Part shown: in pieces, positions 2,493 to 64,000 of the stretch
How positions within the stretch are numbered: the first letter of the stretch is position 1
How the letters are laid out: every line of letters begins with the position of its first letter
Assembly: GCF_006439355.1 (NCBI RefSeq)
Contig: NZ_VFTG01000024.1
Span: 1-64,000, forward strand
Reading direction: 5' to 3'
DNA length: 64,000 bases
From: Mesorhizobium sp. B4-1-3
Lineage (GTDB): Bacteria > Pseudomonadota > Alphaproteobacteria > Rhizobiales > Rhizobiaceae
The notes under the pieces: generated by a model
The model's input: only the letters and a program-made list of their open reading frames with translations
Database searches by the model: none
What the model was told of the DNA's origin: nothing
Translations under genes and position numbers: made by a program

Positions 2493-5471
2493 ATGGCGAA
2501 GAAGAAAATCGAATCCGAGTTGCGGCTTAGCCCGAGACTGGCGCTCCAGCCTCTGGACGCGGACCATGCCCGGCGCGAATTGTCGGAAATCGCCGATGCC
2601 GCCGAGGAAGCGGAGCTTTCCCGTCTCGCTGCCTTTCTGGCAGGCGAGGGGCCGTTGCAGGACCTGCTGGCGGCCGTCTTCGATCTGTCGCCCTTCCTGC
2701 GCGATGTGGCGCGCCGGCGGCCGGCAATCCTCGAGACGCTGTTCGACGGGACGGTCGAAGCGCGACTCGCCGCCATCGGCGCGGCGATCGGCAGCGCGGC
2801 CATGGCGGACGATGCCTCGGAATCCGGCCTGATGATGGCGCTGCGGCAATGGAAGACCGAAGCCCATTTCCTGATCGCGCTGGCTGATCTTTCGGGCGAG
2901 GCGGAGACCGCGGTAACGGTGCGCCGCCTCAGCGATCTCGCGGACGCCTGTACAAACGCCGCGGTCGATTTCCTGCTGCTCGACGCGCACCGCCAAGGCA
3001 AGCTCAAGCTGCCGAATCCGGCGGAACCGGCCAAGGATTCTGGCTGGATCCTGCTCGGCATGGGCAAGCTCGGCGCGCATGAGCTGAATTTTTCCTCCGA
3101 CATTGACCTCGTCGTCTTCTTCGACCCAGAGGCGCCGGCCGTCATCGATCCGCTCGACGCGACCGAGCTGTTCTCCAGGCTCACCCGCCGGCTCGTACCC
3201 ATCCTGCAGGACCGCACCGAGCATGGCTATGTCTTCCGCACCGATCTGAGGCTGCGCCCCGATCCCGGTTCGACGCCGCTGGCGATTCCCGTCGAGGCTG
3301 CGCTTCGCTACTACGAGGCGCGCGGCCAGAACTGGGAGCGGGCGGCCATGATCAAGGCGCGGCCGGTTGCCGGCGACCTTGCTGCCGGCGCGGCCTTCCT
3401 CAAGGAGTTGCTGCCCTATGTCTGGCGCAAATACATGGACTATGCTGCGATCGCCGACGTTCACTCGATCAAGCGCCAGATCCATGCCCACAAGGGGCAT
3501 GGCGAGATCGCCGTGAAGGGCCATAACGTCAAGCTCGGCCGTGGCGGCATCCGCGAGATCGAGTTCTTCGTCCAGACCCAACAGCTCATCGCCGGCGGCC
3601 GCTTCCCGGAACTGCGCGGCCGCGAGACGGTGCCGATGCTCGCAACGCTCGCCGCGCGCGGCTGGATCACCGCCGACGCGCGCGATGCGCTCACCCGCCA
3701 ATACTGGTTCCTGCGTCGCGTCGAGCACGCCATCCAGATGGTGGCGGACGAGCAGACGCATATCCTGCCGGAAGAAGACGAGGAACTGAAACGCATCGCG
3801 CTGATGCTGGGCTTTGCCGGCGAGGCCGACTTCACGCAGGCCTTCCGTGCCTCGCTGCAGCAGGTCGAGCGCCATTATGCGGCGCTGTTCGAGACGGCGC
3901 CCGAGCTTTCGGCCGGCATTGGCAATCTGGTCTTCACCGGCGATGTCGACGATCCCGACACGCTGCAGACGCTGCATGGCCTGGGCTTCCACCGGCCGAG
4001 CGATATCTGCCGCGTCATCCGCGGCTGGCATTTCGGACGCTATCGCGTCACGCAGTCGGCCGAAGCGCGCGAGCGGCTGACCGAACTGACGCCGGCGCTG
4101 CTCAAAGCATTCGGCCAGACGCGGCGCGCCGACGAGGCGCTGATGCGCTTCGACGAGTTCCTCGCCGGCCTGCCGGCCGGTATCCAGCTTTTTTCGCTGC
4201 TGCAGTCGAATCCGGCGCTGCTCAAGCTGATGGCGACGATCATGGGCGCTGCGCCGCGGCTGGCGGCCATCATCACGCGCCGCCCGCACGTCTTCGACGG
4301 GCTGCTCGATCCGGCTCTGCTCACCGAATTGCCTGACCGCGCCTATCTCTCGGCGCGGCTTGCGGCATTCATCGAAGGCGACCGCGCCTATGAGGATGTG
4401 CTGGATCGGCTGCGCATCTTCGCTTCCGAGCAGAAATTCCTGATCGGCGTGCGCCTGCTTGCCGGCTCGATCGATCCCGCGCGCGCCGGCCGCGCCTTCT
4501 CCGATCTCGCCGACCTCACCATAGAGGCCGCACTTCAAGCGGTGATCGCCGAATTCGCGCTGCGCCATGGCAGGATCGCCGGCGGCAGGGTGGCGCTGCT
4601 CGGCATGGGCAAGCTCGGCAGCCGCGAACTCACCGCGGGCTCGGACGTCGATCTCATCCTGCTCTACGACCATAATGACGCCGAGGACTCCGACGGCGAG
4701 AAGCCGCTGGCGCCTTCGCATTACTACACTCGCATGACGCAGCGTCTGATCGCCGCCGTCTCGGCGCCGACCGCCGAAGGCGTGCTCTACGAGTTGGACC
4801 TGCGCCTGCGCCCCTCCGGCAACAAGGGGCCGGTCGCCACCCATATCGACTCATTCAAGAAATATCAGCGCCAGGATGCCTGGACCTGGGAGCACATGGC
4901 GCTGGCACGGGCCCGCGCCATCGGCGGCGACGCCGAGCTCTGCGCCGAGCTAGAGATGGAAGTGGCGGCGGTGCTGGCGCAGCCGCGCGATGCCGCCAAG
5001 GTGAAAGCAGAAGCCGCGCACATGCGGGCGCTGATCGAAAAGGAGAAGCAGCCACGCGACCTCTGGGACATCAAGCTGATCCCCGGCGGGCTCATCGATC
5101 TCGAATTCATCGCCCAGGTCGCTGTCATCACAGGCAATGTCGAGGCCGGCCGCCGGGTCACCGCGACGGCCGACATTCTGGCGCGGCTAGCCCCCGTTTT
5201 CGCGGGCGGCGATGTCCGTGAAGAGCTTGGCGAGGCCTACCGGCTCTATCTGGCGCTGACCCAGATGATCAGGCTTTGCCTCACCGGCGAGTTCCAGCGC
5301 GACGATGTCCCGCCAGGACTTTCGGACCTGCTTCTTGCGGTCACCGACCTGCCGGATTTCGCTGTGCTGGAGGCGCATCTCAAGGAGACGTCGCGGAAGG
5401 TCAGGCTGGACTTCGACCAACTGCTTCGCGCGGGCGCGCAGAGACGCGAGCCGGGTTACTCGGAGCGTTGA
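2493..5471 (+). CDS. glnE: Bifunctional glutamine synthetase adenylyltransferase/deadenylylase
   Basis: GlnE adds or removes AMP on glutamine synthetase and so switches it off or on with nitrogen status, under control of PII and glutamine. Its 992 residues are typical. There are two nucleotidyltransferase domains, each opened by GMGKLG: the N-terminal one near residue 187 (HELNFSSDIDLVVFFD) and the C-terminal one near 703 (RELTAGSDVDLILLYD). Both keep the paired Asp residues that bind metal. The start lies 12 bases after the kinase stop. A competing ATG at 2480 overlaps that stop in another frame and ends within 17 codons. The 3' end overlaps the convergent toxin gene by 16 bases. Confidence 0.97.
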   Translation: MAKKKIESELRLSPRLALQPLDADHARRELSEIADAAEEAELSRLAAFLAGEGPLQDLLAAVFDLSPFLRDVARRRPAILETLFDGTVEARLAAIGAAIGSAAMADDASESGLMMALRQWKTEAHFLIALADLSGEAETAVTVRRLSDLADACTNAAVDFLLLDAHRQGKLKLPNPAEPAKDSGWILLGMGKLGAHELNFSSDIDLVVFFDPEAPAVIDPLDATELFSRLTRRLVPILQDRTEHGYVFRTDLRLRPDPGSTPLAIPVEAALRYYEARGQNWERAAMIKARPVAGDLAAGAAFLKELLPYVWRKYMDYAAIADVHSIKRQIHAHKGHGEIAVKGHNVKLGRGGIREIEFFVQTQQLIAGGRFPELRGRETVPMLATLAARGWITADARDALTRQYWFLRRVEHAIQMVADEQTHILPEEDEELKRIALMLGFAGEADFTQAFRASLQQVERHYAALFETAPELSAGIGNLVFTGDVDDPDTLQTLHGLGFHRPSDICRVIRGWHFGRYRVTQSAEARERLTELTPALLKAFGQTRRADEALMRFDEFLAGLPAGIQLFSLLQSNPALLKLMATIMGAAPRLAAIITRRPHVFDGLLDPALLTELPDRAYLSARLAAFIEGDRAYEDVLDRLRIFASEQKFLIGVRLLAGSIDPARAGRAFSDLADLTIEAALQAVIAEFALRHGRIAGGRVALLGMGKLGSRELTAGSDVDLILLYDHNDAEDSDGEKPLAPSHYYTRMTQRLIAAVSAPTAEGVLYELDLRLRPSGNKGPVATHIDSFKKYQRQDAWTWEHMALARARAIGGDAELCAELEMEVAAVLAQPRDAAKVKAEAAHMRALIEKEKQPRDLWDIKLIPGGLIDLEFIAQVAVITGNVEAGRRVTATADILARLAPVFAGGDVREELGEAYRLYLALTQMIRLCLTGEFQRDDVPPGLSDLLLAVTDLPDFAVLEAHLKETSRKVRLDFDQLLRAGAQRREPGYSER

Positions 5472-5893: not shown

Positions 5894-6150
5894 GGCGTCC
5901 AGTCTTTGAGCATCTGGTCCAGTTCGTCATGCTGGGAAGGGACCGCGCTCTCGGCAATGGCTTTCAACGTCTCGTCATCGAGTTCCTCGACGGGCCGGGC
6001 AACCCGTCCCTTGACCAGCACGTCGAACATCGCGGCTGAAAGAAGCACCGTGTGGGTTCGGCCATTCTTCGTAATCGCGACCGGCGCCCGCTGCGCGGCG
6101 TCCTGGAAGCGGCCGACATTCTGCTGGAATTCCGTTGATGTCACGCGCAT
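5890..6150 (-). CDS. Phd/YefM-family antitoxin
   Basis: An 86-residue antitoxin that would neutralise the downstream toxin and repress its own promoter. The N-terminal part (MRVTSTEFQQNVGRFQDAA, then PVAITKNGRTHTVLLS) is the typical Phd/YefM DNA-binding fold. The acidic C-terminal third (VEELDDETLKAIAESAV) would be the toxin-binding tail. It is first in the operon and overlaps the toxin by four bases. AGAGGTGAC just upstream of the ATG is a reasonable ribosome site. The pair lies between glnE and the PleC-like kinase, two genes that are otherwise neighbours in rhizobia as far as I recall, which suggests insertion. Confidence 0.88.
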   Translation of the reverse strand: MRVTSTEFQQNVGRFQDAAQRAPVAITKNGRTHTVLLSAAMFDVLVKGRVARPVEELDDETLKAIAESAVPSQHDELDQMLKDWTP

Positions 6151-6171
6151 GGAAAGTCACCTCTTATCCAA

Positions 6172-6190
6172 AATAGATAAAGTAGATAAC
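6172..6190 (-). promoter_or_regulatory. Probable operator/promoter of the toxin-antitoxin pair
   Basis: Two direct copies of TAGATAA (6174-6180 and 6183-6189; TTATCTA on the coding strand) lie 24-40 bases upstream of the antitoxin start in an AT-rich patch. Repeated half-sites here are what an autoregulating Phd-type antitoxin would bind. Assignment is by position and repetition only. Confidence 0.5.
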
Positions 6191-6228
6191 TTTTTCAAGT
6201 TTGCTCGGGCAGCTGAGGATTTGCTTGA

Positions 6229-8559
6229 TCAGGCCGCCGCCTTCACCATCGGCGGCGCTTTCTTCAGCGGAATGCGCACCGACACGATCGTGCCGACGCC
6301 TTCGGTCGAGCGGATCTTCAGCGCGCCGCCCTGCAGCTCGGCCAGTGAGCGCGAGATCGCGAGCCCGAGGCCCGAGCCGGTGTGGTTCTTGGAGAACTGG
6401 TTCTGGACCTGCTCGAAGGGCCGGCCGAGCTTGCTCAACGCCTCCTTGGGGATGCCGCAGCCATTGTCCTCGATGGTAAGCAGCAGCGCGCCCGACGTGT
6501 TGCGCGCCCTGACCGTGATCTTGCCGCCCTGTCCGGTGAATTTCACCGCGTTGGAAAGAAGGTTGATGGCGATCTGCTTGATGGCGCGGCGATCGGCGTA
6601 GACGCGCATCGCGTCGGCGATGCGCGTCTCGACATTGATCGACTTCTCCGCCGCCTGCAGCGAGATCACCCGCACGGTCTCCTTGATCAGCGGGCAGAGG
6701 TCGATCTCCTCGCGGTCGAGCGAGAACTGGCCGGCCTCGATCTTCGACATGTCGAGGATGTCGTTGATGACGCCGAGCAGATATTTGCCGCTGCCGTTGA
6801 TGTCGGTTGCGTATTCCTCGTAGCGCTCCGAGCCGAGCGGCCCGAACAGACCCTGCTGCATCAATTCGGAGAAGCCGATGATGGCGTTGAGCGGCGTGCG
6901 CAGCTCATGCGACATATTGGCCAGGAACTCCGACTTGGCGCGGTTGGCCGCCTCCGCGCGCTCCGTTTCCTTCATGTATTTGCGGTTGAGCTCCACCAGT
7001 TCGCTGGCGCGTTCCTCTTCGGCGCGACGGGCGAGGCTGAGATCGTGGATCGTCGCCATCAGCCGGCGCTCGCTGTCGACCAGCTTTTCCTGGTGCAGCT
7101 TGATCTGGGTGATGTCGGAGCCGACCGAGACGATGCCGCCGTCGCGGGTCCTCAGCTCGTTGACCTGCAGCCAGCGGCCATCCGCGAGCTGGCGCTCGAA
7201 GCTGACGCCTCCCTGCGGCCCGTTGGCGTTGGCGAGCCTGCGCTCCGAGGCGAAGGCCAGCATCCGCTCCTCCACCGCGTCGCGGAGAATGCCGGGCACG
7301 ACGTCGCGGTCCGACAGGCCGTTGTCCTTCTGGAACTTCGAATTGCACATGATCAGCCGCTCGGCGGCATCCCACAGCACGAAGGATTCATTGATGTTCT
7401 CGATCGCGGTCCTGAGCCGCATGTCCGCTGCTTCCGAACGCAGCGCCAGATGCCGCTGCTCGGTGACGTCGACGGCAATGCCGATCAGCTGGATCTCCGG
7501 CGCTTCCGGATCGATCACCTGGGCGCGAGCCCGCATCCACACCCACTGTCCGTCGGCGTGGCGCATGCGGAAGACCTGGTCGATATGATCGATCTCGCGC
7601 TCAATGATGCGGTTGGCAAGCTCGAACAGATCGCCGTCGTCGGGGTGGATGATCTCGTCGACTTCGCCGAAGGAAAGCATCGTGTCGCAGGGCTCGTAGC
7701 CCAGCATGTCGTACATCGAGCGCGACCAGTACATCTTGCCGCGCACCATGTCCCAGTCCCACAGGCCGCAACGGCCGCGCACCAGCGCCATGTCGATGCG
7801 CTGATGCGCCTCGAGATAGATGCGGTCCGCAGCCTGGGCGCGCGCCGCCTGGCCGAAATAGGCGTAGAGGATGACGATCAGCACGCCCGCCGTCAGCACG
7901 AACAATGTGACGTTGAGCGACATCGACTTGCGCCAGCTTTCGAACACCGCTTCCTGCGGCACCAGCACGGCGGCCGCGTGTTTGCGATCGCCGCTGAGGC
8001 TGACGGCGGCCAACCAGTCCTGTCCTGAGATGCTGACATCCATCACGCCGGCACGGTCGCCGAACATGAACAGCGGCTGGCCGCCCAGGACCAAACTGTC
8101 CAGCGTGCGGCCCTGCCAGCCCGTCGACAGCGGCGAGACGGCGATGACCTTGAAGCTGGCGTCGGTGATGGCGAGCACATGGGCGCGGCTCATGGCGCCC
8201 TGGCGGCTGGTGTTTTCCAGGAGGCTTACCGCGTTGGCGCCGGCCACTGTTGGGTCGGCGGTGATGGCCTGCGCCATCTGGCCGGCGCCCAGCGCCAGCA
8301 CGGCCTTGGCGTCGCGCTCGATCTCGTCATGCTCGTTCATCAGCGACAGGAAGCGCAGCGCGGCGATGACGATCAGGAAGATGATGATCAGAGCCGGGAT
8401 CGAACGGCGCAGAAAGGGCTCGGCGGCCAAGAGCCGCTGATAGGCAGGTTCGGCGATCAGGCGCGTATTTCCGGCAAGCCCATCGCTCCTTGCCTTGCGA
8501 CGCGCAAAAGCCTTCCCTCCGGGCGCGCCCCACGCGTCCGCCTTGGCCATAAATGGCAC
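6229..8559 (-). CDS. Membrane-bound PAS sensor histidine kinase of the PleC/PdhS class
   Basis: A 776-residue kinase. Two membrane helices (about 50-72 and 215-237) bracket a periplasmic domain of about 140 residues. At least two PAS domains follow; the first contains WDWDMVRGKMYWSRSMYDML. The kinase core has the phospho-accepting His551 in FLANMSHELRTPLNAIIGF, then the stretch FGPLGSERYEEYATDI that marks the DivJ/PleC/PdhS group acting on the cell-cycle regulator DivK. N box (NLLSNAVKFT), G1 (DNGCGIP) and G2 (GSGLGLAIS) are intact. As I recall, PleC lies next to glnE in Sinorhizobium, so this is probably pleC, though not proven. The start is GTG at 8559, or ATG at 8550 giving MAKADAWG. Confidence 0.88.
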   Translation of the reverse strand: MPFMAKADAWGAPGGKAFARRKARSDGLAGNTRLIAEPAYQRLLAAEPFLRRSIPALIIIFLIVIAALRFLSLMNEHDEIERDAKAVLALGAGQMAQAITADPTVAGANAVSLLENTSRQGAMSRAHVLAITDASFKVIAVSPLSTGWQGRTLDSLVLGGQPLFMFGDRAGVMDVSISGQDWLAAVSLSGDRKHAAAVLVPQEAVFESWRKSMSLNVTLFVLTAGVLIVILYAYFGQAARAQAADRIYLEAHQRIDMALVRGRCGLWDWDMVRGKMYWSRSMYDMLGYEPCDTMLSFGEVDEIIHPDDGDLFELANRIIEREIDHIDQVFRMRHADGQWVWMRARAQVIDPEAPEIQLIGIAVDVTEQRHLALRSEAADMRLRTAIENINESFVLWDAAERLIMCNSKFQKDNGLSDRDVVPGILRDAVEERMLAFASERRLANANGPQGGVSFERQLADGRWLQVNELRTRDGGIVSVGSDITQIKLHQEKLVDSERRLMATIHDLSLARRAEEERASELVELNRKYMKETERAEAANRAKSEFLANMSHELRTPLNAIIGFSELMQQGLFGPLGSERYEEYATDINGSGKYLLGVINDILDMSKIEAGQFSLDREEIDLCPLIKETVRVISLQAAEKSINVETRIADAMRVYADRRAIKQIAINLLSNAVKFTGQGGKITVRARNTSGALLLTIEDNGCGIPKEALSKLGRPFEQVQNQFSKNHTGSGLGLAISRSLAELQGGALKIRSTEGVGTIVSVRIPLKKAPPMVKAAA

Positions 8560-8696
8560 TCCCCGATCTGCCGTATCTACTGGATGATCCGGTTACGCCG
8601 CACGCCCCGAATCGTCAGTAAAGAATCAAAGGTGATTCGCGTTGTCCAGAGGGCCGGGCGAAAAAGATTAAAAGTTGATTGAAATTTCTCCTTTTC

Positions 8697-13434: not shown

Positions 13435-14373
13435 TTATCCCAACGCCCGCAACTTCGCCTTGACCTCGAGAAAATCCCGCCAGGCCAGCTTCTTGTGCGC
13501 CGGCGTCCGCAAGAGATAGGCCGGATGCAGTGTCGGCATCGCAGGAATGGCAATTCCGGACGCCGTCATGTGCACCCGCCAGTTGCCGCGCAGTCGCAGA
13601 ATGCCTTCGGTCGTGTTGAGCAGCGTCTTGGCCGACGGGCCGCCGAGATTGACCAGCACTTTTGGATTGACCAGCTCGATCTGCCTTTCGATGAAGGGAC
13701 GGCAGATTTCGGTCTCGTGCGGCGTCGGCGTGCGGTTGCCCGGTGGGCGCCATGGGATGACGTTGGCGATATAGGCGGAGTTGCGGTCGAGGCCGATCGC
13801 CGCCAGCATGCGGTCGAGCAGCCGGCCGGACCGGCCGACGAAAGGCAAGCCTTCGAGGTCCTCGTCCCGTCCCGGCGCCTCGCCGACCAGCATCAGGTCG
13901 GCGTTGGGATTGCCGTCCGCGAACACCAGGTTCTTGGCGGTGAATTTGAGGTTGCAGCCATCGAAGGTGGCCATGAGTTGGCGCAGCTCGTCCAGCGTCG
14001 AAGCGCTCGCGGCAAGCTGCCGCGCCAGCAGGGCCTGTGCCTCGTCGGGAACGGCCGCGGCCGCCGGCATCCGGGTGGGTGCGTCCGGAATATTGCTGGC
14101 GTCGAGGCCGGATAAGGGAGCTGGCGGGTTCTCAACGCGTTCCGGAACCTGGTCTGGTGCCGTTCGGCTTTCGGGCCTGGTTTCGCGTAGTGGCGCTGCC
14201 GGCGCCCGCTCGGCAGGCCTGCGTTCGGCCGGCCCCCGTCCAACTGGCATTGCCGCCGCTTCGGCGAACCGGTTGATCGGCGCGTCCTGGAGCGCGTCGT
14301 CGACGCCGGCGCTGGCATAGAAGGCGAGCAGTTCTGCGATCTCGGCTGGTGTGCTGGGGGAGGCGGCAGTCAT
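13435..14373 (-). CDS. Uracil-DNA glycosylase, family-4-like, Fe-S ligands apparently lost
   Basis: Removes uracil from DNA at the start of base excision repair. Motif A (VGEAPGRDEDLEGLPFVG, residues 163-180) and the C-terminal motif (HPAYLLR, His283) are those of family 4. Family 4 enzymes hold a 4Fe-4S cluster on four cysteines. Here only Cys140 and Cys224 lie at such positions: the partner of the first CxxC is Lys (CNLK), and the Cys normally before RPPGNR is Trp208 (VIPWRPPGNR). The first 130 residues are a Pro/Ala-rich extension longer than in classical members. This matches what I recall of the Bradyrhizobium enzyme BdiUng, a related UDG without an Fe-S cluster. Confidence 0.88.
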   Translation of the reverse strand: MTAASPSTPAEIAELLAFYASAGVDDALQDAPINRFAEAAAMPVGRGPAERRPAERAPAAPLRETRPESRTAPDQVPERVENPPAPLSGLDASNIPDAPTRMPAAAAVPDEAQALLARQLAASASTLDELRQLMATFDGCNLKFTAKNLVFADGNPNADLMLVGEAPGRDEDLEGLPFVGRSGRLLDRMLAAIGLDRNSAYIANVIPWRPPGNRTPTPHETEICRPFIERQIELVNPKVLVNLGGPSAKTLLNTTEGILRLRGNWRVHMTASGIAIPAMPTLHPAYLLRTPAHKKLAWRDFLEVKAKLRALG

Positions 14374-14419
14374 GGCGCCACCATCGTCCGCGCGGCGAGG
14401 TTTTGCAACCGTGGAGAGA

Positions 14420-15058
14420 TCAGCCGGTTGGAATCCTTGGATCCTGCACGATGTAAAACGTCCAGCGCGGCGTGTAGTCGGTGACCAGGAAATCGAAGGT
14501 CGCCGTCTTCAGCGGGTCGATTTTGCCGTTTTTGAACAGCAGCCGGTCATAGGGTTCGAACCGGCGGTCGAAATCCGCGAAATTGCTCGACCAGATGTTG
14601 TCGGGCGTCTTGTTGCGCTGGTCGAAGGACAGGCCGTCGCCGAACACGCTGGGTTGGTCAAGAATCTCCTGCAACTCGAACTGGAACTCCACCCAGGGGA
14701 GCGCGCTGTTGTTGAGCACGTCGATGCGCATATACATCACGCCGTTGGCGACCTCGCCAGCCTTGCCGAAGGGCTCGATCGGCTTGGTCGCGCGGATGGT
14801 CAGCGTCACCGGCGTGGCCGTGTTCAGCTCCTCCTTGATGACCAGCGGGTCTTCCTTGGTGCCGATGCCGGAGGCTCCGGTGATGCGGAAGCCGCCCAGC
14901 TCGTCGGAGAAGGAATAGGCGCCCGTCGCCCACACCTTCACCGGATCGGCCTCAGCCGGCACGCTCAAAAAGAGGAGCGGAAGAACCGCGCGCCAGGCCG
15001 CGCCTGGCGTGAAGAGTAAGCGCTTAGATGGAAAGCCGGGCGGCTCTGGACTGCGCAT
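14420..15058 (-). CDS. Exported protein of unknown function
   Basis: A 212-residue protein with a signal peptide (ALAWR-like basic start, then AVLPLLFLSVPAEA) and a predicted beta-rich mature part with no family I recognise. The mature protein starts near DPVKVWATGAYSFSDELGG. Further on it has alternating polar/hydrophobic strands such as VMYMRIDVLNNSALPWVEFQ. The ATG at 15058 (MRSPEPPGF) is chosen; the frame is open for 33 more codons upstream but that part shows no coding character. It stands alone, 46 bases after the glycosylase start on the same strand. Confidence 0.72.
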   Translation of the reverse strand: MRSPEPPGFPSKRLLFTPGAAWRAVLPLLFLSVPAEADPVKVWATGAYSFSDELGGFRITGASGIGTKEDPLVIKEELNTATPVTLTIRATKPIEPFGKAGEVANGVMYMRIDVLNNSALPWVEFQFELQEILDQPSVFGDGLSFDQRNKTPDNIWSSNFADFDRRFEPYDRLLFKNGKIDPLKTATFDFLVTDYTPRWTFYIVQDPRIPTG

Positions 15059-15307
15059 GGCGCCAAGTATTGCCGATAACCAAGCCGTCGAACAATTAAA
15101 AACATTCCGGGGCCGCCTGGTCTGCCAACCAATTGGCGCTGGCCTATGCTTGGCCATGGCCTGTGCTGCTGCCTTTTCGTAGGAAACCGCGACTTTTTGT
15201 CGAAATCGGCGTTGTCACGTCCGCGCCGGTTTCGCGTCGCGAATTGATGCGCTATGCAGCGCATGAGCCAGCACAATGCGAGAATGCGGCAAGCTATAGA
15301 GGGGCCG

Positions 15308-16987
15308 ATGAGCGAAATCGAACGCGAAAGCATGGAATTCGACGTGGTGATCGTCGGCGCCGGTCCCGCCGGCCTTGCCGCGGCGATCCGTCTGAAGCAA
15401 GTCAATCCGGACCTCTCGGTGGTCGTCCTGGAGAAGGGCGGCGAGGTCGGCGCGCATATCCTCTCCGGTGCGGTCGTCGACCCGATCGGCATCGACCGGC
15501 TGCTGCCCGGCTGGCGCGAGGAAGAGGGTCATCCGTTCAAGACGCCTGTCACGGCGGACCATTTCCTGGTGCTTGGCCCGGCCGGTTCGTTCCGCCTGCC
15601 CAACTTCCTGATGCCGCCGCTGATGAACAATCACGGCAATTACATCGTGTCGCTCGGCAATGTCTGCCGCTGGCTGGCGGCCAAGGCCGAAGCGCTGGGC
15701 GTCGAGATCTATCCGGGCTTCGCCGCCGCAAGCCTCGTCTACAACGATGCCGGCGCCGTCACCGGCGTCATCACCGGCGACATGGGCGTCGAGAAGGACG
15801 GCACGCATGGCCCGGCCTACGCGCCCGGCATGGCGCTGATGGGCAAATATGTGCTGATCGGCGAGGGCGCGCGGGGCTCCTTGGCCAAGCAGCTCATCGC
15901 CAAATACCAGCTTGCCGATGGCCGCGAGCCCGGCAAGTTCGGCATCGGCCTCAAGGAACTCTGGCAGGTCAAGCCGGAGAACCACAAGCCGGGCCTGGTG
16001 CAGCACTCCTTCGGCTGGCCGCTCGACATGAAGACCGGCGGCGGCTCCTTCCTCTACCATCTCGAGGACAACCAGGTGGCGGTCGGCTTCGTCGTCCACC
16101 TGAACTACAAGAACCCCTATCTCTCGCCCTTCGAGGAGTTCCAGCGTTTCAAGACGCATCCGGCGATCGCCGGCACCTTCGAAGGCGCCAAGCGCATCGG
16201 CTATGGCGCGCGCGCCATCACCGAGGGCGGCTGGCAGTCCGTGCCGAAGCTGTCTTTCCCGGGCGGCGTGCTGATGGGCTGTGCGGCCGGCTTCGTCAAC
16301 GTGCCGCGCATCAAGGGCTCGCACAATGCGGTGCTGTCCGGCATGCTGGCGGCCGAGCATGTGGCCGAGGCGATCGCCGGCGGGCGCGCCAATGACGAGC
16401 TTGCGTCCTACGAAGAAGCCTGGCGCGGCAGCGACATCGGCAAGGACCTGAAAAAGGTGCGCAACGTCAAGCCGCTGTGGTCGCGCTTCGGCACCATCGT
16501 CGGCGTCGGCATCGGCGGGCTCGACATGTGGCTGAACACGCTGTTCGGCTTCTCGCCCTTCGGCACCATGAAGCACGGCAAGGCAGACTATGCGACGCTC
16601 GAGCCGGCATCCAAGCATCAGAAGATCGCCTATCCGAAGCCGGACGGCGTGTTGACCTTCGACCGTCTCTCCTCGGTGTTCCTCTCCAACACCAACCATG
16701 AGGAAAACGAGCCGGTGCATCTGATCGTCGGCGACATGGCGCTGCAGCAGCGTTCCGAGCACGATGTCTTCGCAGGCCCGTCGACCCGCTATTGCCCGGC
16801 CGGCGTCTATGAATGGGTGGACAAGGACGGCAACGCCGCCGCCGATCCGTCGGCCAAGGACGTGCGCTTCGTCATCAACGCGCAGAACTGCGTCCACTGC
16901 AAGACATGCGACATCAAGGATCCGAACCAGAACATCAACTGGGTGCCGCCACAAGGCGGCGAAGGCCCGGTCTACCAAGGCATGTGA
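15308..16987 (+). CDS. Electron transfer flavoprotein-ubiquinone oxidoreductase
   Basis: Inner-membrane ETF-QO passes electrons from ETF (loaded by acyl-CoA dehydrogenases such as the Ivd encoded at 28.6-29.8 kb) to ubiquinone. The FAD site VVIVGAGPAGLAAAIRL is near residue 15. The C-terminal 4Fe-4S ferredoxin part shows the four cysteines in RYCPAGVYEW and NCVHCKTCDIKDPNQ, and the total of 559 residues is typical. The ATG at 15308 (MSEIERESMEFD) has GAGGGG seven bases upstream; an earlier in-frame ATG at 15254 is not supported. The last codons (GGEGPVYQGM) are copied again 73 bases downstream. Confidence 0.96.
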   Translation: MSEIERESMEFDVVIVGAGPAGLAAAIRLKQVNPDLSVVVLEKGGEVGAHILSGAVVDPIGIDRLLPGWREEEGHPFKTPVTADHFLVLGPAGSFRLPNFLMPPLMNNHGNYIVSLGNVCRWLAAKAEALGVEIYPGFAAASLVYNDAGAVTGVITGDMGVEKDGTHGPAYAPGMALMGKYVLIGEGARGSLAKQLIAKYQLADGREPGKFGIGLKELWQVKPENHKPGLVQHSFGWPLDMKTGGGSFLYHLEDNQVAVGFVVHLNYKNPYLSPFEEFQRFKTHPAIAGTFEGAKRIGYGARAITEGGWQSVPKLSFPGGVLMGCAAGFVNVPRIKGSHNAVLSGMLAAEHVAEAIAGGRANDELASYEEAWRGSDIGKDLKKVRNVKPLWSRFGTIVGVGIGGLDMWLNTLFGFSPFGTMKHGKADYATLEPASKHQKIAYPKPDGVLTFDRLSSVFLSNTNHEENEPVHLIVGDMALQQRSEHDVFAGPSTRYCPAGVYEWVDKDGNAAADPSAKDVRFVINAQNCVHCKTCDIKDPNQNINWVPPQGGEGPVYQGM

Positions 16988-60061: not shown

Positions 60062-60304
60062 ATGCCGCTCTACATTCGCGATGACGAGGTCGACGCGCTC
60101 GCCGCAAAATTGCAGCGCGAGACCAATGCGTCCAGCAAGACCGAGGCTGTGCGGACCGCGCTTTTGCACGAACTAGAACGCCATCGCACCAAGCTGCCGC
60201 TGCGCGATCGAATTGTTAAGCTTCAGGCGGAGGCGAAGAAGATCGGCCTGCCCAACCCCGATTTCGACATGAAGAAATTCACCAATGAGATGTGGGAAGA
60301 CTGA
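60062..60304 (+). CDS. vapB: VapB-like antitoxin (PSK/Rv0623 type)
   Basis: An 80-residue antitoxin. The N-terminal part (MPLYIRDDEVDALAAKLQRE, then SSKTEAVRTALLHEL) is the ribbon-helix-helix DNA-binding form of the Rv0623/PSK transcription-factor family. The C-terminal half (LPNPDFDMKKFTNEMWED) would wrap the toxin. AGGAG lies before the ATG. Its stop overlaps the toxin start (TGATG). It would repress its own promoter through the inverted repeat just upstream. Confidence 0.9.
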   Translation: MPLYIRDDEVDALAAKLQRETNASSKTEAVRTALLHELERHRTKLPLRDRIVKLQAEAKKIGLPNPDFDMKKFTNEMWED

Positions 60305-60717
60305 TGTTTGTCGACGCTTCGGTGCTCGTCGCCATTCTCAACCAGGAACCGGGCTGGGAAGAATTGTCCAAACAACTCTCAGGAGCTGTCGACTTCTATG
60401 TCTCCGCGATGGTCCGTTTTGAAGCGACGCAGGCACTGGCGCGGGCCGGCGCGGGCTCTCGCAAGCCCACTGCCGAAGCCCTCCTGAAGGCTCGCGATCT
60501 GGTGGATCAGCTGATTTTGGAAATTGGTGGAGAAAATGTGCCGATAGGCGAGGAGATCGGCTCACGCGCCATCGAGGCCAGCGCTCGCTATGGCAAGGCC
60601 GTCGGTCATCAAGCCGATCTGAATTTGGGCGATTGCTTTGCCTATGCCTGCGCCAAGGTGCTCGAGCTTCCGCTGCTCTACAAAGGCAATGATTTCCTGC
60701 TGACGGATTTGAAATAA
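60304..60717 (+). CDS. vapC: VapC-type PIN-domain toxin
   Basis: A 137-residue PIN-domain ribonuclease. The catalytic acidic residues are visible in MFVDASVLVAILNQE (Asp4), in the central Glu of MVRFEATQALARAG, and in DLNLGDCFAYACAK near the C-terminus. VapC toxins usually cleave tRNA or rRNA. The start codon overlaps the antitoxin stop, so the pair is translationally coupled. An in-frame alternative at 60292 lies inside the antitoxin gene. Confidence 0.92.
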   Translation: MFVDASVLVAILNQEPGWEELSKQLSGAVDFYVSAMVRFEATQALARAGAGSRKPTAEALLKARDLVDQLILEIGGENVPIGEEIGSRAIEASARYGKAVGHQADLNLGDCFAYACAKVLELPLLYKGNDFLLTDLK

Positions 60718-60876: not shown

Positions 60877-61395
60877 ATGGACGACAAGAAGGCAGCGATC
60901 CTGAGCGAAATACCGCGGTTGCGACGCTATGCGCGCTCGTTGCTGCGCGAGCGCGATTCCGCCGACGATCTCGTCCAGGATTGCCTGGAGCGGGCGCTTG
61001 TTCGGCTCGACAACTGGCAGACTGGAGAGAGCCCCCGGAGGTGGCTGTTTACGATCATGCATCATTTGTTCATCGACCAGATGCGCAAGGTCAACCGGCG
61101 CGGCGAGGCGGCGATGCTGCCTCTCGAAGCCGGAGAAGCCCAAGCCGCGCCCGCCGATCAGGTCGAGACCATCGCCTCGCGCGAGATCATGGATGCCCTG
61201 CAGGCGATCAGCCCCGATCGCCGCGCGGCGTTGGTGATGATCGCCATCGAGGGCTTTTCCTATGCCGAGGCCGCCAACATCCTTGGGGTGCCGGCCGGCA
61301 CGCTGATGTCGCGCATCGCGCGCGGCCGCGAGGAATTGCGAGGATTGCTCGACGACACATCGCGCCGCCGCTCGATAAGGATCGTCGAGAAATGA
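60877..61395 (+). CDS. ECF-family RNA polymerase sigma factor
   Basis: A 172-residue ECF sigma factor. Region 2 (YARSLLRERDSADDLVQDCL, then NWQTGESPRRWLFTIMHHLF) would bind the -10 element. Region 4 (MIAIEGFSYAEAANILGVPA, then GTLMSRIARGREELR) would bind the -35. It overlaps its anti-sigma partner by four bases. The signal and regulon are unknown. Confidence 0.93.
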   Translation: MDDKKAAILSEIPRLRRYARSLLRERDSADDLVQDCLERALVRLDNWQTGESPRRWLFTIMHHLFIDQMRKVNRRGEAAMLPLEAGEAQAAPADQVETIASREIMDALQAISPDRRAALVMIAIEGFSYAEAANILGVPAGTLMSRIARGREELRGLLDDTSRRRSIRIVEK

Positions 61396-62183
61396 CCCAC
61401 CGCGATTTCACTGAACGCGATATCCATATGGCCCTTGACGGCGAACTGCCGGGCGAGGAGCGCATGGCTTACGACGCCTGGCTCGATGCCAATCCCGAGA
61501 TGAAGGCGAAGTCCACGCGCTACATCGCCGACCGCGCTGCCATGCGCGCCGCCGTGGCCGGCGTGATGGACGAGCCGGTGCCGGCAAGGTTGCGGCAGGT
61601 CGTGCTTGGCGAGGCGCCTGCAAAAGCATCGCCCTGGCGCTCGCGCTGGTGGCTGTCGGCTGCCGCGGCCGCGATGCTCGCGGTCGGCGGGCTCGGCGGC
61701 TATGTCGCCGGCATCGACAGCATCGCCCGTAGCGAAGGGGATGACCAACTCGCCGAACAGGCGATCGCAGCCCATGTCATCTACGCCGCGGAAAAGCGCC
61801 ACGCCGTCGAGGTTCCCGCAAGCGACAAGGATCATCTCCAGACCTGGCTGTCGAACCGTATCGGGTTGAAGCTGGTTGCGCCAGATCTTGCGGCCGAGGG
61901 CTTTGACCTCGTCGGCGGCCGGCTGCTGCCGGCCGGTGACCAGAGCAAGGCAGCGATGCTGCTCTACGAGGACGCCAAGGGCGAGCGCATCTCGCTCTAC
62001 GTTACCGCCGACTCGTCGGAGACATCCAAGGGCACCTACACGGCTGAGACCGGTGGGCCGGAGGCTGTCTACTGGCTCGACAAGGGCTATGCCTGCGCGG
62101 TCGTCGGCTCGTTGCCGCCGGAACGCCTGTCGGATGTCGCAAAGAGCGCCTATGGCCAGCTCGTGGCCGGCATATCGAGCTGA
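61392..62183 (+). CDS. Anti-sigma factor, membrane-anchored
   Basis: A 263-residue partner of the ECF sigma factor. The N-terminal domain (DIHMALDGELPGEERMAYDA) resembles the anti-sigma fold that holds the sigma factor, without the Cys/His zinc motif of the ZAS type. A membrane helix follows at about residues 90-112 (SAAAAAMLAVGGLGGYVAGI), and the C-terminal part is outside the cytoplasm. The start ATG at 61392 overlaps the sigma factor stop. The open frame running far upstream of it is the antiparallel-free shadow within the sigma gene and is not used. Confidence 0.88.
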   Translation: MTHRDFTERDIHMALDGELPGEERMAYDAWLDANPEMKAKSTRYIADRAAMRAAVAGVMDEPVPARLRQVVLGEAPAKASPWRSRWWLSAAAAAMLAVGGLGGYVAGIDSIARSEGDDQLAEQAIAAHVIYAAEKRHAVEVPASDKDHLQTWLSNRIGLKLVAPDLAAEGFDLVGGRLLPAGDQSKAAMLLYEDAKGERISLYVTADSSETSKGTYTAETGGPEAVYWLDKGYACAVVGSLPPERLSDVAKSAYGQLVAGISS

Positions 62184-62389
62184 ACCGGCTGCGGTTTTCG
62201 GCGGCCGGCAGTCCCTTGGACGGCAATTCTGTTCAAGTGCTAGGCCTTTCCTGTCGTGGCGGAAACTGTCACAATTCGGCCCTAATCAAGGAGCGATAGC
62301 GCTTGATGGATACTGGCGCTTCGGCCAGTATTCGCGACGCATCCACCGGGGCCGTTTCTTAAACCCAATCGAGGTTCTCCCAAGCCCGC

Positions 62390-63487
62390 ATGCCTGCCGA
62401 GATCCGCAAGGCCCGCGCGTCAGACGTCGATGACCTCGCCGCCATCGAGAAGGCTGTTTTTCCGGGCGACAGGCTCTCGCGCCGCTCCTTCCGCCAGTTC
62501 ATCGAACGCGAAACCGCCGAGATGCTGGTGGCCGAGAACGAGGGCCGCGTTGCCGGCTATGCCGTGGTCCTGTTCCGCAAGGGCAGCGGCGTGGCGCGGC
62601 TTTATTCCATCGCCGTTGGTCCCTTCTTCGGTCGCCTCGGCATCGGCCGGCTTCTGCTGGCCGCCGCCGAGGAAGCGGCCTTCGAGCATGACCGGCTGTT
62701 GCTGCGCCTCGAAGTGCGCGAGGACAATCAGCGCGCCATCCGCATCTACGAACAGGCCGGCTATCGGAAATTGGGCCGCGAGCTCGATTATTACGAAGAT
62801 GGTGCGACCGCGCTGCGCTATGAGAAGACGCTGCGTGGCGATACGCCGACCGCGACCAAGGTGCCGTTCTACCCGCAGACCTGCGAGTTCACCTGCGGCC
62901 CGTGCTGCCTGATGATGGCGATGGCCAATTTCGACCGTGGCTTCGTGCCTGACTCGGTCATGGAAATCCGCCTGTGGCGCGAGGCGACCACGGTCTTCAT
63001 GATGTCGGGTCCCGGCGGCTGCGAGCCCTTCGGCCTGGCCGTCGCCGGCTATGAGAGCGGGCTCGCCGCCGAGATATTCGTCTCCTTCTACGGCGCCCTG
63101 TTCCTGCAATCGGTGAGGAGCGAGGACAAGCGCCGGGTGATGGAGCTCGCACAGGTCGATTTCCGCCGCCGCGCCGAGCTTTACGGCATCTCCGTCAACT
63201 ACCGTCCGTTCGGCATCGGCGATATCCGGGACGCCTTGGCCGAGGGCAAGCTGGTGGTAGTGCTGATCAGCGGCTTCCTGATGTTCGGCAAGAAGGTGCC
63301 GCACTGGGTGCTGGCCATCGGCGACGATGGCGACCATATCCTGATCCACGACCCCTGGGTCGAGGATGAGAGGCAGGAGACGATCCTCGATGCCGCGAAC
63401 ATTCCGGTGCCCTACGACATCTTCATGAACATGGCGCAGTTCGGTCGAGACGGCTTGCGCGCGGCCATCACTCTGGGAAAACGCTGA
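62390..63487 (+). CDS. GNAT acetyltransferase fused to a C39-like cysteine peptidase
   Basis: A 365-residue two-domain protein. Residues about 1-150 are a RimI-like GNAT acetyltransferase with VGPFFGRLGIGRLLLAAAEE and LEVREDNQRAIRIYEQAGY. Residues about 160-360 are a papain-like C39 peptidase: TCEFTCGPCCLMMAMANF carries the catalytic Cys, VPHWVLAIGDDGDHILIHDP carries the His and Asp. It lies four bases before a RimK-like ATP-grasp gene. This fusion recurs in bacteria beside such ligases; together they suggest peptide or protein modification of unknown product. Start is ATG at 62390. Confidence 0.9.
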   Translation: MPAEIRKARASDVDDLAAIEKAVFPGDRLSRRSFRQFIERETAEMLVAENEGRVAGYAVVLFRKGSGVARLYSIAVGPFFGRLGIGRLLLAAAEEAAFEHDRLLLRLEVREDNQRAIRIYEQAGYRKLGRELDYYEDGATALRYEKTLRGDTPTATKVPFYPQTCEFTCGPCCLMMAMANFDRGFVPDSVMEIRLWREATTVFMMSGPGGCEPFGLAVAGYESGLAAEIFVSFYGALFLQSVRSEDKRRVMELAQVDFRRRAELYGISVNYRPFGIGDIRDALAEGKLVVVLISGFLMFGKKVPHWVLAIGDDGDHILIHDPWVEDERQETILDAANIPVPYDIFMNMAQFGRDGLRAAITLGKR

Positions 63488-63491
63488 GACA

Positions 63492-64000
63492 ATGACCTGG
63501 GTTATCCTGACAGGCAGGCAGAACGACATCGATCAGGTGGCCACACCCCACAAGATCATCACCAACCGCGATTATCTCGCGCATCCGGCGCTGTTTCGTG
63601 GCCAGCGGCCGAAAGTGATCAACCTGTCGAACAATTACGGCTACCAGAGCCGCGGCTACTATGCCTCGCTGCTCGCCGGCTCGCGCGGCCACAGGGTGAT
63701 CCCCACGGTCGAGACGATGATCGACCTTTCGGAGCGCAAACTCTACGAGCACGCGCTGCCGGAGCTCGAACTCGCCTTGAACAAATGCCGCAAGGATCTC
63801 GGCGGGGCGTTTCCGGCGAAGGCCGCGATCTTTTTCGGCATCGGTCCGTCGAAAGTGTGGGACCGTTTCGCCAAGCTGTTGTTCGACTGGTTCCGCGCGC
63901 CGGCACTCGAGGTCCACATCAAGGACAGCGCCGAATGGGCCTCGATCCGCAAGATCGGCTTCCTGCCGCTCGCCCGCATGACCGAGGATGAGGAAGAGTT
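63492..64000 (+). CDS. RimK-like ATP-grasp protein with RLAN-type N-terminal domain, truncated by window end
   Basis: Only the first 169 codons are in the window. The N-terminus (MTWVILTGRQNDIDQVATPH, then VINLSNNYGYQSRGYYASLL) matches the RimK-like ATP-grasp N-terminal (RLAN) domain. The ATP-grasp catalytic part would follow beyond the window. Such enzymes form amide bonds by ligating an amino acid to a carboxylate, as RimK does with glutamate on ribosomal protein S6. It lies four bases after the GNAT-C39 fusion, so the two are translationally linked. Start is ATG at 63492. Confidence 0.85.
   Translation, partial: MTWVILTGRQNDIDQVATPHKIITNRDYLAHPALFRGQRPKVINLSNNYGYQSRGYYASLLAGSRGHRVIPTVETMIDLSERKLYEHALPELELALNKCRKDLGGAFPAKAAIFFGIGPSKVWDRFAKLLFDWFRAPALEVHIKDSAEWASIRKIGFLPLARMTEDEEE

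Follow-up and report, generated by a model that had tools for sequence, protein, structure and literature searches.

What might an acetyltransferase, a papain-like peptidase and a RimK-like ATP-grasp ligase do together when the first two are fused in one protein and the third is encoded directly behind them? The question is raised by the end of the window, by which we mean the whole 64,000-nucleotide stretch of the Mesorhizobium sp. B4-1-3 contig analysed here. A preliminary description of this DNA had read the three activities as a triad for small-peptide or protein-tail modification. Below, we describe the two genes, their conservation and their surroundings, and weigh what the pair may make.

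Domain composition of the two genes

The coordinates of the locus are collected in Table 1. As the preliminary description had it, a single open reading frame (365 aa) carries both an acetyltransferase and a papain-like peptidase, and the gene of an RLAN/RimK-like ligase starts four bases further on (63487 to 63492). In the fusion protein, the GNAT half occupies approximately residues 1-150, with a Pfam Acetyltransf_1 match at residues 29-125 (E 9.2e-18), and the papain-type domain occupies residues 158-362, where it matches DUF3335, 'Peptidase_C39 like' (PF11814), at E 2e-74 (250 bits against a cut-off of 25). The fusion protein fell below the cut-off of the classic transporter-linked Peptidase_C39 (PF03412; 15.4 against 22 bits), and by these profile matches the peptidase half is strictly a C39-like domain, not Peptidase C39 proper. 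The ligase gene has 169 codons inside the window and the remainder downstream; as the contig extends to 78800, the gene could be read past position 64000 to its end (2493-3956 on the fetched segment L002, that is, 63492-64955 in window numbering). Its product combines RLAN (PF14401; E 4.1e-38, 130.8 bits against a cut-off of 25) with a RimK ATP-grasp domain behind it (E 9.4e-10, 38.8 bits against a cut-off of 21), and is 100% identical to a ligase of Mesorhizobium plurifarium STM8773.

Table 1 Coordinates of the pair and of the features upstream of it, in window numbering
Feature	Position	Strand	Remarks
Rv0623-like transcription factor and PIN-domain genes	60062-60717		VapBC-type toxin-antitoxin look
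ECF sigma factor gene	60877-61395		upstream of the pair
Anti-sigma-like gene	after the sigma factor gene, to 62183		named from position only; Pfam matches below cut-off
Conserved intergenic block GTCACAATTCGGCCCTAATCAAGGAGCGATAGCGC	62268..62302	+	candidate promoter or operator of the pair
GNAT-DUF3335 fusion gene	62390..63487	+	365 aa; ORF list and Pfam
RLAN and RimK-like ATP-grasp ligase gene	63492..64955 (window part 63492..64000)	+	487 aa; ORF list and Pfam

The residues expected of active enzymes are conserved in all three domains (numbers refer to the fetched segments, whose counting differs from that of the full-length proteins by 1-3 residues). Gln161, Cys167 and His303 of DUF3335 were kept in 68 of 68 aligned sequences, and the acidic residue 319 was Asp in 53 of them and Glu in the other 15; in the window's full-length fusion protein, they are Gln163, Cys169, His305 and Asp321. 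The Cys and His pointed out from the window's letters are the aligned positions, which was the second point on which the preliminary description could have failed, and the domain is a predicted peptidase with its catalytic residues kept. Lys283, Lys323, Asp437, Glu449 and Asn451 were invariant in all 93 aligned ligases. Among the 98 aligned GNATs, Glu111 in the 'LEV' stretch was invariant, and the 'YY' pair was kept at Tyr137 in 95 and at Tyr138 in 97. We take the roles of the conserved residues in all three domains, those of ATP-grasp enzymes included, to be the ones generally held for their superfamilies.

Among solved structures, the GNAT half is closest to protein N-terminal acetyltransferases of the RimI/Ard1 type, and the ligase is closest to RimK and LysX. 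A solved structure covering DUF3335 was found neither among all 37 matches of one search nor among the best 60 of 122 of another, and none of the matches listed covered the RLAN region. In the AlphaFold model of the GNAT-C39 protein, the GNAT half was usable and the C39 half was mostly below a pLDDT of 50; in Foldseek, whose outcome bears on the GNAT half only, the predicted fold of that half was nearest Ard1 and RimI. A ligase model built from 32 Mesorhizobium-type sequences had a mean pLDDT of 37 and was discarded.

At the family level, RimI (TIGR01575) matched 21 of 21 GNATs scanned at 1e-5 (chosen from 98), and all 12 ligases picked for scanning from the 93 matched the RimK and LysX families. 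The substrates of RimI and of the RimK/LysX types are proteins or carrier proteins, which these enzymes modify at an end or on a side chain. Residues 12-139 of the window's GNAT align to positions 1-126 of the 132 in the profile of RimI, the S18-alanine N-acetyltransferase, with the Glu and the Tyr-Tyr conserved, but they score 78.1 bits against a curated cut-off of 86.4. The window's ligase likewise stayed below the curated cut-offs of rimK_fam (TIGR00768; 87.5 against 143.4 bits) and LysX (TIGR02144; 88.6 against 275.6 bits). As the window's proteins lie under the RimI and rimK_fam cut-offs, homology does not fix the substrate. Furthermore, a second protein of the same genome outscored the window's GNAT for RimI (82.9 against 80.8 bits, neither reaching the cut-off), so the housekeeping RimI may be another protein than the window's GNAT.

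Co-conservation of the pair and variability of the peptidase

The two genes are co-conserved, which the preliminary description had named as a point on which it could fail. In a sample of 398 genomes of the phylum, RLAN was found in 72 and DUF3335 in 58, and 57 genomes had both (Fisher p ~1e-53, uncorrected for the kinship of the genomes). In a sample of 101 genomes of the family, RLAN occurred in 42 and DUF3335 in 31, all of them within those 42; by coordinates, DUF3335 lay directly beside RLAN on the same strand in 29 of the 31, the exceptions being a separate gene on the opposite strand (G062) and a gene on a different contig (G053). All nine genomes sampled from the window's genus had the pair. 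Among 14 well-known control genomes, none had RLAN and one, Methanosarcina acetivorans, had DUF3335. Nothing in the phage collection matched the ligase at 1e-10.

The coupling of the genes is also close. We inspected the best 80 of 305 matching loci, nearly all from Mesorhizobium, and in 79 of these named loci the end of the GNAT-C39 gene fell between a 4-nt overlap with the ligase start and a 6-nt gap before it (a 4-nt overlap in 34, a 1-nt overlap in 10 and gaps of 2-6 in 35). In L049, which is among the 79, a contig end truncates the locus, and its GNAT half was not seen. The 80th, from M. albiziae (L116), has a GNAT without the C39 domain.

To describe the pair beyond this genus, the surroundings of the 75 RLAN loci in the 72 genomes of the phylum sample were scanned with profiles built from these loci. 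A GNAT adjoins the ligase in 73 of the 75: as a GNAT-C39 fusion in 50, as a GNAT without fused DUF3335 in 19, and as one of each in 4. The two exceptions are G290, where the ligase stands alone and a GNAT-C39 gene lies on another contig, and G298, where the contig starts within the C39 domain. The nearest GNAT and ligase profile matches were 6 to 302 bases apart in 72 of the 73 loci and 1470 in one, and the genes occurred in four arrangements (with the GNAT first, with the ligase first, divergent and convergent). In the family sample, 18 of the 42 RLAN genomes were scanned, and 18 of 18 further RLAN loci had an adjacent GNAT; four of the other genomes (G000, G073, G067 and G020) were counted among the 75 loci, and 20 were judged by coordinates only. 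Of 11 plasmid records with the ligase, a GNAT-C39 gene adjoins it in eight (seven Azospirillum and one Tistrella) and three gave no GNAT-C39 match. In one of these three, from Pseudomonas aeruginosa, the plasmid ligase has SDR and aminotransferase genes as neighbours and no GNAT annotated alongside. PA1766-PA1768 of P. aeruginosa had been considered as a relative and were dropped; the plasmid RLAN gene of that species sits among other genes.

The core of the system is thus the acetyltransferase and the ligase, and the peptidase is optional. Acetyltransferase, peptidase and ligase are all present in the window as the triad proposal held, but the 19 loci with a GNAT and no fused DUF3335 leave the peptidase as no constant member. 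Fifteen of the 72 RLAN genomes had no DUF3335 match at all, and three genomes of family code f44 each carried the ligase twice, beside the fusion at one locus and beside a plain GNAT at the other. In a quickly built tree of the 93 ligases, which has SH-aLRT support only and some long branches, C39 presence changes about 13 times, with the starred branches forcing at least 9 changes. Given that the peptidase is absent from many RLAN loci and genomes and changes repeatedly, the function of the pair survives without DUF3335.

Within the window's family, we considered an exchange of the GNAT itself and do not claim it. Ligases there are 88-92% identical while their GNATs are 51-60% identical when C39 is present in only one of the two loci (13 pairs), and a quick GNAT tree splits fused from stand-alone GNATs (5 changes). 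On the other hand, at like ligase identity in the family-sample loci, stand-alone GNATs average 50-54% identity and C39-fused ones 76-77%, so that stand-alone GNATs also diverge strongly from one another. An AU test leaving out three long-branched rows rejected neither a single clade of all family GNATs (p 0.953, with the better likelihood) nor one of all fused GNATs (p 0.196). With the divergence of the stand-alone GNATs, these results do not tell swap and loss apart.

Neighbouring genes and the conserved upstream block

Downstream of the ligase gene lie a LysR regulator on the opposite strand, a fatty-acid desaturase and a GGDEF/EAL protein. GCS2 and transporter genes, which the preliminary description had suggested looking for beyond position 64000, did not appear among the neighbours of the pair scanned by Pfam; the only GCS2 match of the genome is on contig C4 and the pair is on C17. 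No precursor peptide gene was found beside the window's pair. When ORFs of at least 40 aa from 61 loci were clustered (blastp 1e-6, at which distant relatives may be missed), neither a third gene nor a small precursor-like family recurred broadly, and the recurring neighbours were mainly restricted to the window's own family. Two accessory families stood out within the fetched stretches, namely the RMND1-like DUF155, in 13 of 75 loci, and DUF2817, a member of an M14-like metallopeptidase clan, in 14 of 75 (e.g., L162, L171 and L175); many of these loci are of family code f38. Genomes with strong matches to them carried RLAN above chance (21 of 38 and 25 of 50, respectively), figures that are inflated by kinship, as many of the genomes come from family code f38.

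DUF3335 also occurs outside the pair: without RLAN in G108, and as extra copies in G294 and G370. At L187 (G294:C15), two extra DUF3335 proteins (6133-7194 and 14327-16397) have N-terminal halves without a Pfam GNAT match at 1e-3, and one of the two genes comes after a gene for an AstE/AspA-type deacylase and a solute-binding-protein/ABC row (permease and ATPase by eye). On plasmid pSINME02 of S. meliloti AK83 (L227), a stand-alone DUF3335-type gene (7953-8621) ends an ABC transporter row, with phosphonate metabolism genes near. The gene in G108 (L189, 8120-8821) has no GNAT and lies between sucB- and lpd-like genes, in what by eye is a sucAB-lpd row.

A block of approximately 35 bp beginning GTCACAATTCGGCC lies about 115-120 bases upstream of the GNAT and may serve the pair as promoter or operator. 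An exact 15-base core of it was present in 65 of the 80 named loci and, with 1-2 mismatches, in 14 more; L049 had no good match. Thirty further loci were compared: one from the same order and 29 from the window's family, among them that of the window itself. A 14-base core with at most one mismatch was found in 18 of the 30, ten with the C39 fusion and eight with no C39, at 103-126 bases before the GNAT match in 17 and at 221 in one; the other 12 loci, without the core, had 2-6 mismatches. In L019, the block is present and relatives of the sigma and anti-sigma-like genes were not detected, so that there the block goes with the pair. When the 6.1-Mb genome was searched with a 29-position pattern, allowing up to 3 mismatches, the block was the single match. 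A search of window positions 62100-64000 against Rfam gave no match up to E 1.

Candidate functions of the pair

Predicted amidoligase neighbourhoods with RLAN, GNAT and a papain-like peptidase were reportedly described by Iyer et al. in 2009 (Mol Biosyst). They hold the same domain set and the same fusion type as the window's pair, and RLAN and DUF3335 already have Pfam names; compared with those neighbourhoods, here the peptidase is optional, the GNAT is nearly constant and no GCS2 gene lies beside the window's pair. The neighbourhood type is already known, though uncharacterised; we correct its core and do not claim a new kind of system. For GNAT-DUF3335 fusions, the accessible part of a later paper (PMC10318531) cites Iyer et al. 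2009. The literature searched yielded no function, substrate or product for the pair, and the accessible parts of a study of the microviridin protease NosP and of a membrane-vesicle study citing the amidoligase work contain nothing on it.

We tentatively favour, with slightly less than even confidence, a terminus-modifying (writer-and-cap) module that acts on the end of a peptide or protein whose gene lies elsewhere in the genome; in this reading, the C39-like domain is an optional trimmer or eraser. The ligase would use ATP to activate a carboxylate, at the C-terminus of a peptide or protein or in an acidic side chain, and would join an amino acid or another amine to it; the RimI-like GNAT would acetylate an alpha-amine of the same substrate or of the added residue; and the C39-like domain, where present, would trim or remove the product. 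We infer these chemical steps, their order and the substrate, and the scheme of writing, capping and trimming or erasing follows by analogy the pairing of RimK with RimB. According to the accessible parts of two papers (PMC12239564, PMC11957791), RimK of Pseudomonas is opposed by the protease RimB, which trims its glutamate tails on RpsF. There too a RimK-type ATP-grasp enzyme is partnered with a protease, but RimB is a retropepsin and not papain-like, no GNAT is mentioned in those parts, and the window's ligase has the extra RLAN domain and scores under the rimK_fam cut-off. In P. aeruginosa, the rlo operon (protease RloA, RloB and ATP-grasp enzyme RloC), as far as the accessible part of PMC12239564 describes it, likewise joins an ATP-grasp enzyme to a protease with the product unknown; it differs in having a secreted retropepsin and an inactive transglutaminase membrane protein, with no GNAT among its three products.

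The adjacency of GNAT and RLAN in 73 of 75 loci, the presence of RLAN in 57 of 58 DUF3335 genomes, the RimI- and RimK-type matches, the RimK-RimB precedent and DUF2817 at 14 of 75 loci count for the terminus-modifying module. That the peptidase is optional is also easier to reconcile with an eraser than with a maturation step needed at every locus. The scores of the window's proteins below the RimI and rimK_fam cut-offs, and the ligases without an adjacent GNAT, in G290 and, by annotation, on the P. aeruginosa plasmid, count against the module. The stand-alone DUF3335 genes near ABC transporter, AstE/AspA-type deacylase or phosphonate genes hint at small molecules and, with the one in the sucAB-lpd-like row, speak against a protein substrate, and they make a free acetylated peptide a strong rival.

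Under that rival, the product would be a free small metabolite resembling the osmolyte N-acetylglutaminylglutamine amide (NAGGN): the ligase would couple amino acids or short peptides, the GNAT would cap the alpha-amine and the C39-like domain would degrade the product. NAGGN loci unite GNAT, ATP-grasp and peptidase in one pathway, and the NAGGN synthetase family (TIGR03103, N-acetylglutaminylglutamine synthetase) matched 14 of 21 scanned GNATs at 1e-5 or better; the metabolite reading also accords with the finding that no gene for a precursor or substrate recurs next to the pair. However, the sequence match is weak. The window's GNAT reaches 19.2 bits against a TIGR03103 cut-off of 569, in the GNAT part only, and fits RimI far better; TIGR03103 is absent from the 25 listed of 32 matches of the window's ligase and from the 25 listed of 30 families matched by the 12 ligases. 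Furthermore, the GNAT is fused to the ATP-grasp domain in NAGGN loci and to the peptidase here, and no asparagine-synthetase-like partner was found among the scanned neighbour genes. We regard a free metabolite as possible, on the unlikely side.

Alternatively, the two genes may form a loose operon whose products work apart: the GNAT-C39 protein could, for instance, detoxify compounds or scavenge peptides, and the ligase could add tails to a cofactor. Such an operon would account for the ligases without an adjacent GNAT, for DUF3335 without RLAN in G108 and for the extra copies in G294 and G370. It appears improbable, as GNAT and ligase remain neighbours in all four arrangements and in many of the phylum's family codes.

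In microviridin-type clusters, ATP-grasp ligases occur together with a GNAT and a C39 domain. In the manner of such graspetides, the ATP-grasp enzyme could cyclise or tail a short precursor, with the C39-like domain cutting it and the GNAT adding an acetyl group. In the accessible part of PMC8939145, double-glycine C39 peptidases rank first among the families near graspetide ATP-grasps. Such a RiPP pathway is nevertheless very improbable here, given that no small third family recurs broadly among the clustered ORFs of at least 40 aa from 61 loci, that the pair is in every sampled member of the genus where a peptide-product cluster would be expected to be patchily spread, and that the fused domain is DUF3335 and not the transporter-linked C39.

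Returning to the terminus-modifying module, a fuller version can be sketched as a widespread proteobacterial two-ended tagging system, in which the C-end of a specific cellular protein or ribosomal peptide would be extended by the RLAN ligase, an amine would be capped by the GNAT, a fused papain-like eraser would be kept in lineages where reversibility is needed, and the upstream block would be a dedicated cis-element controlling the operon in some members of the window's family. Taken as a whole, this version is rather unlikely. Modification of a small peptide or of a protein tail, as first proposed, is still the class of function that makes most sense, although no product was found to go with it.

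The RLAN ligase occurs in 72 of 398 genomes of the phylum sample and throughout the sampled genus, yet no known substrate was found in the literature searched. With a constant GNAT and a variable peptidase, the search for the substrate is narrowed, first of all, to an acetylated, ligase-extended terminus, and the natural relatives that lack the peptidase are ready controls. If the modification is indeed a mark on proteins, the RimK type would gain an acetylation-coupled form of tail modification.
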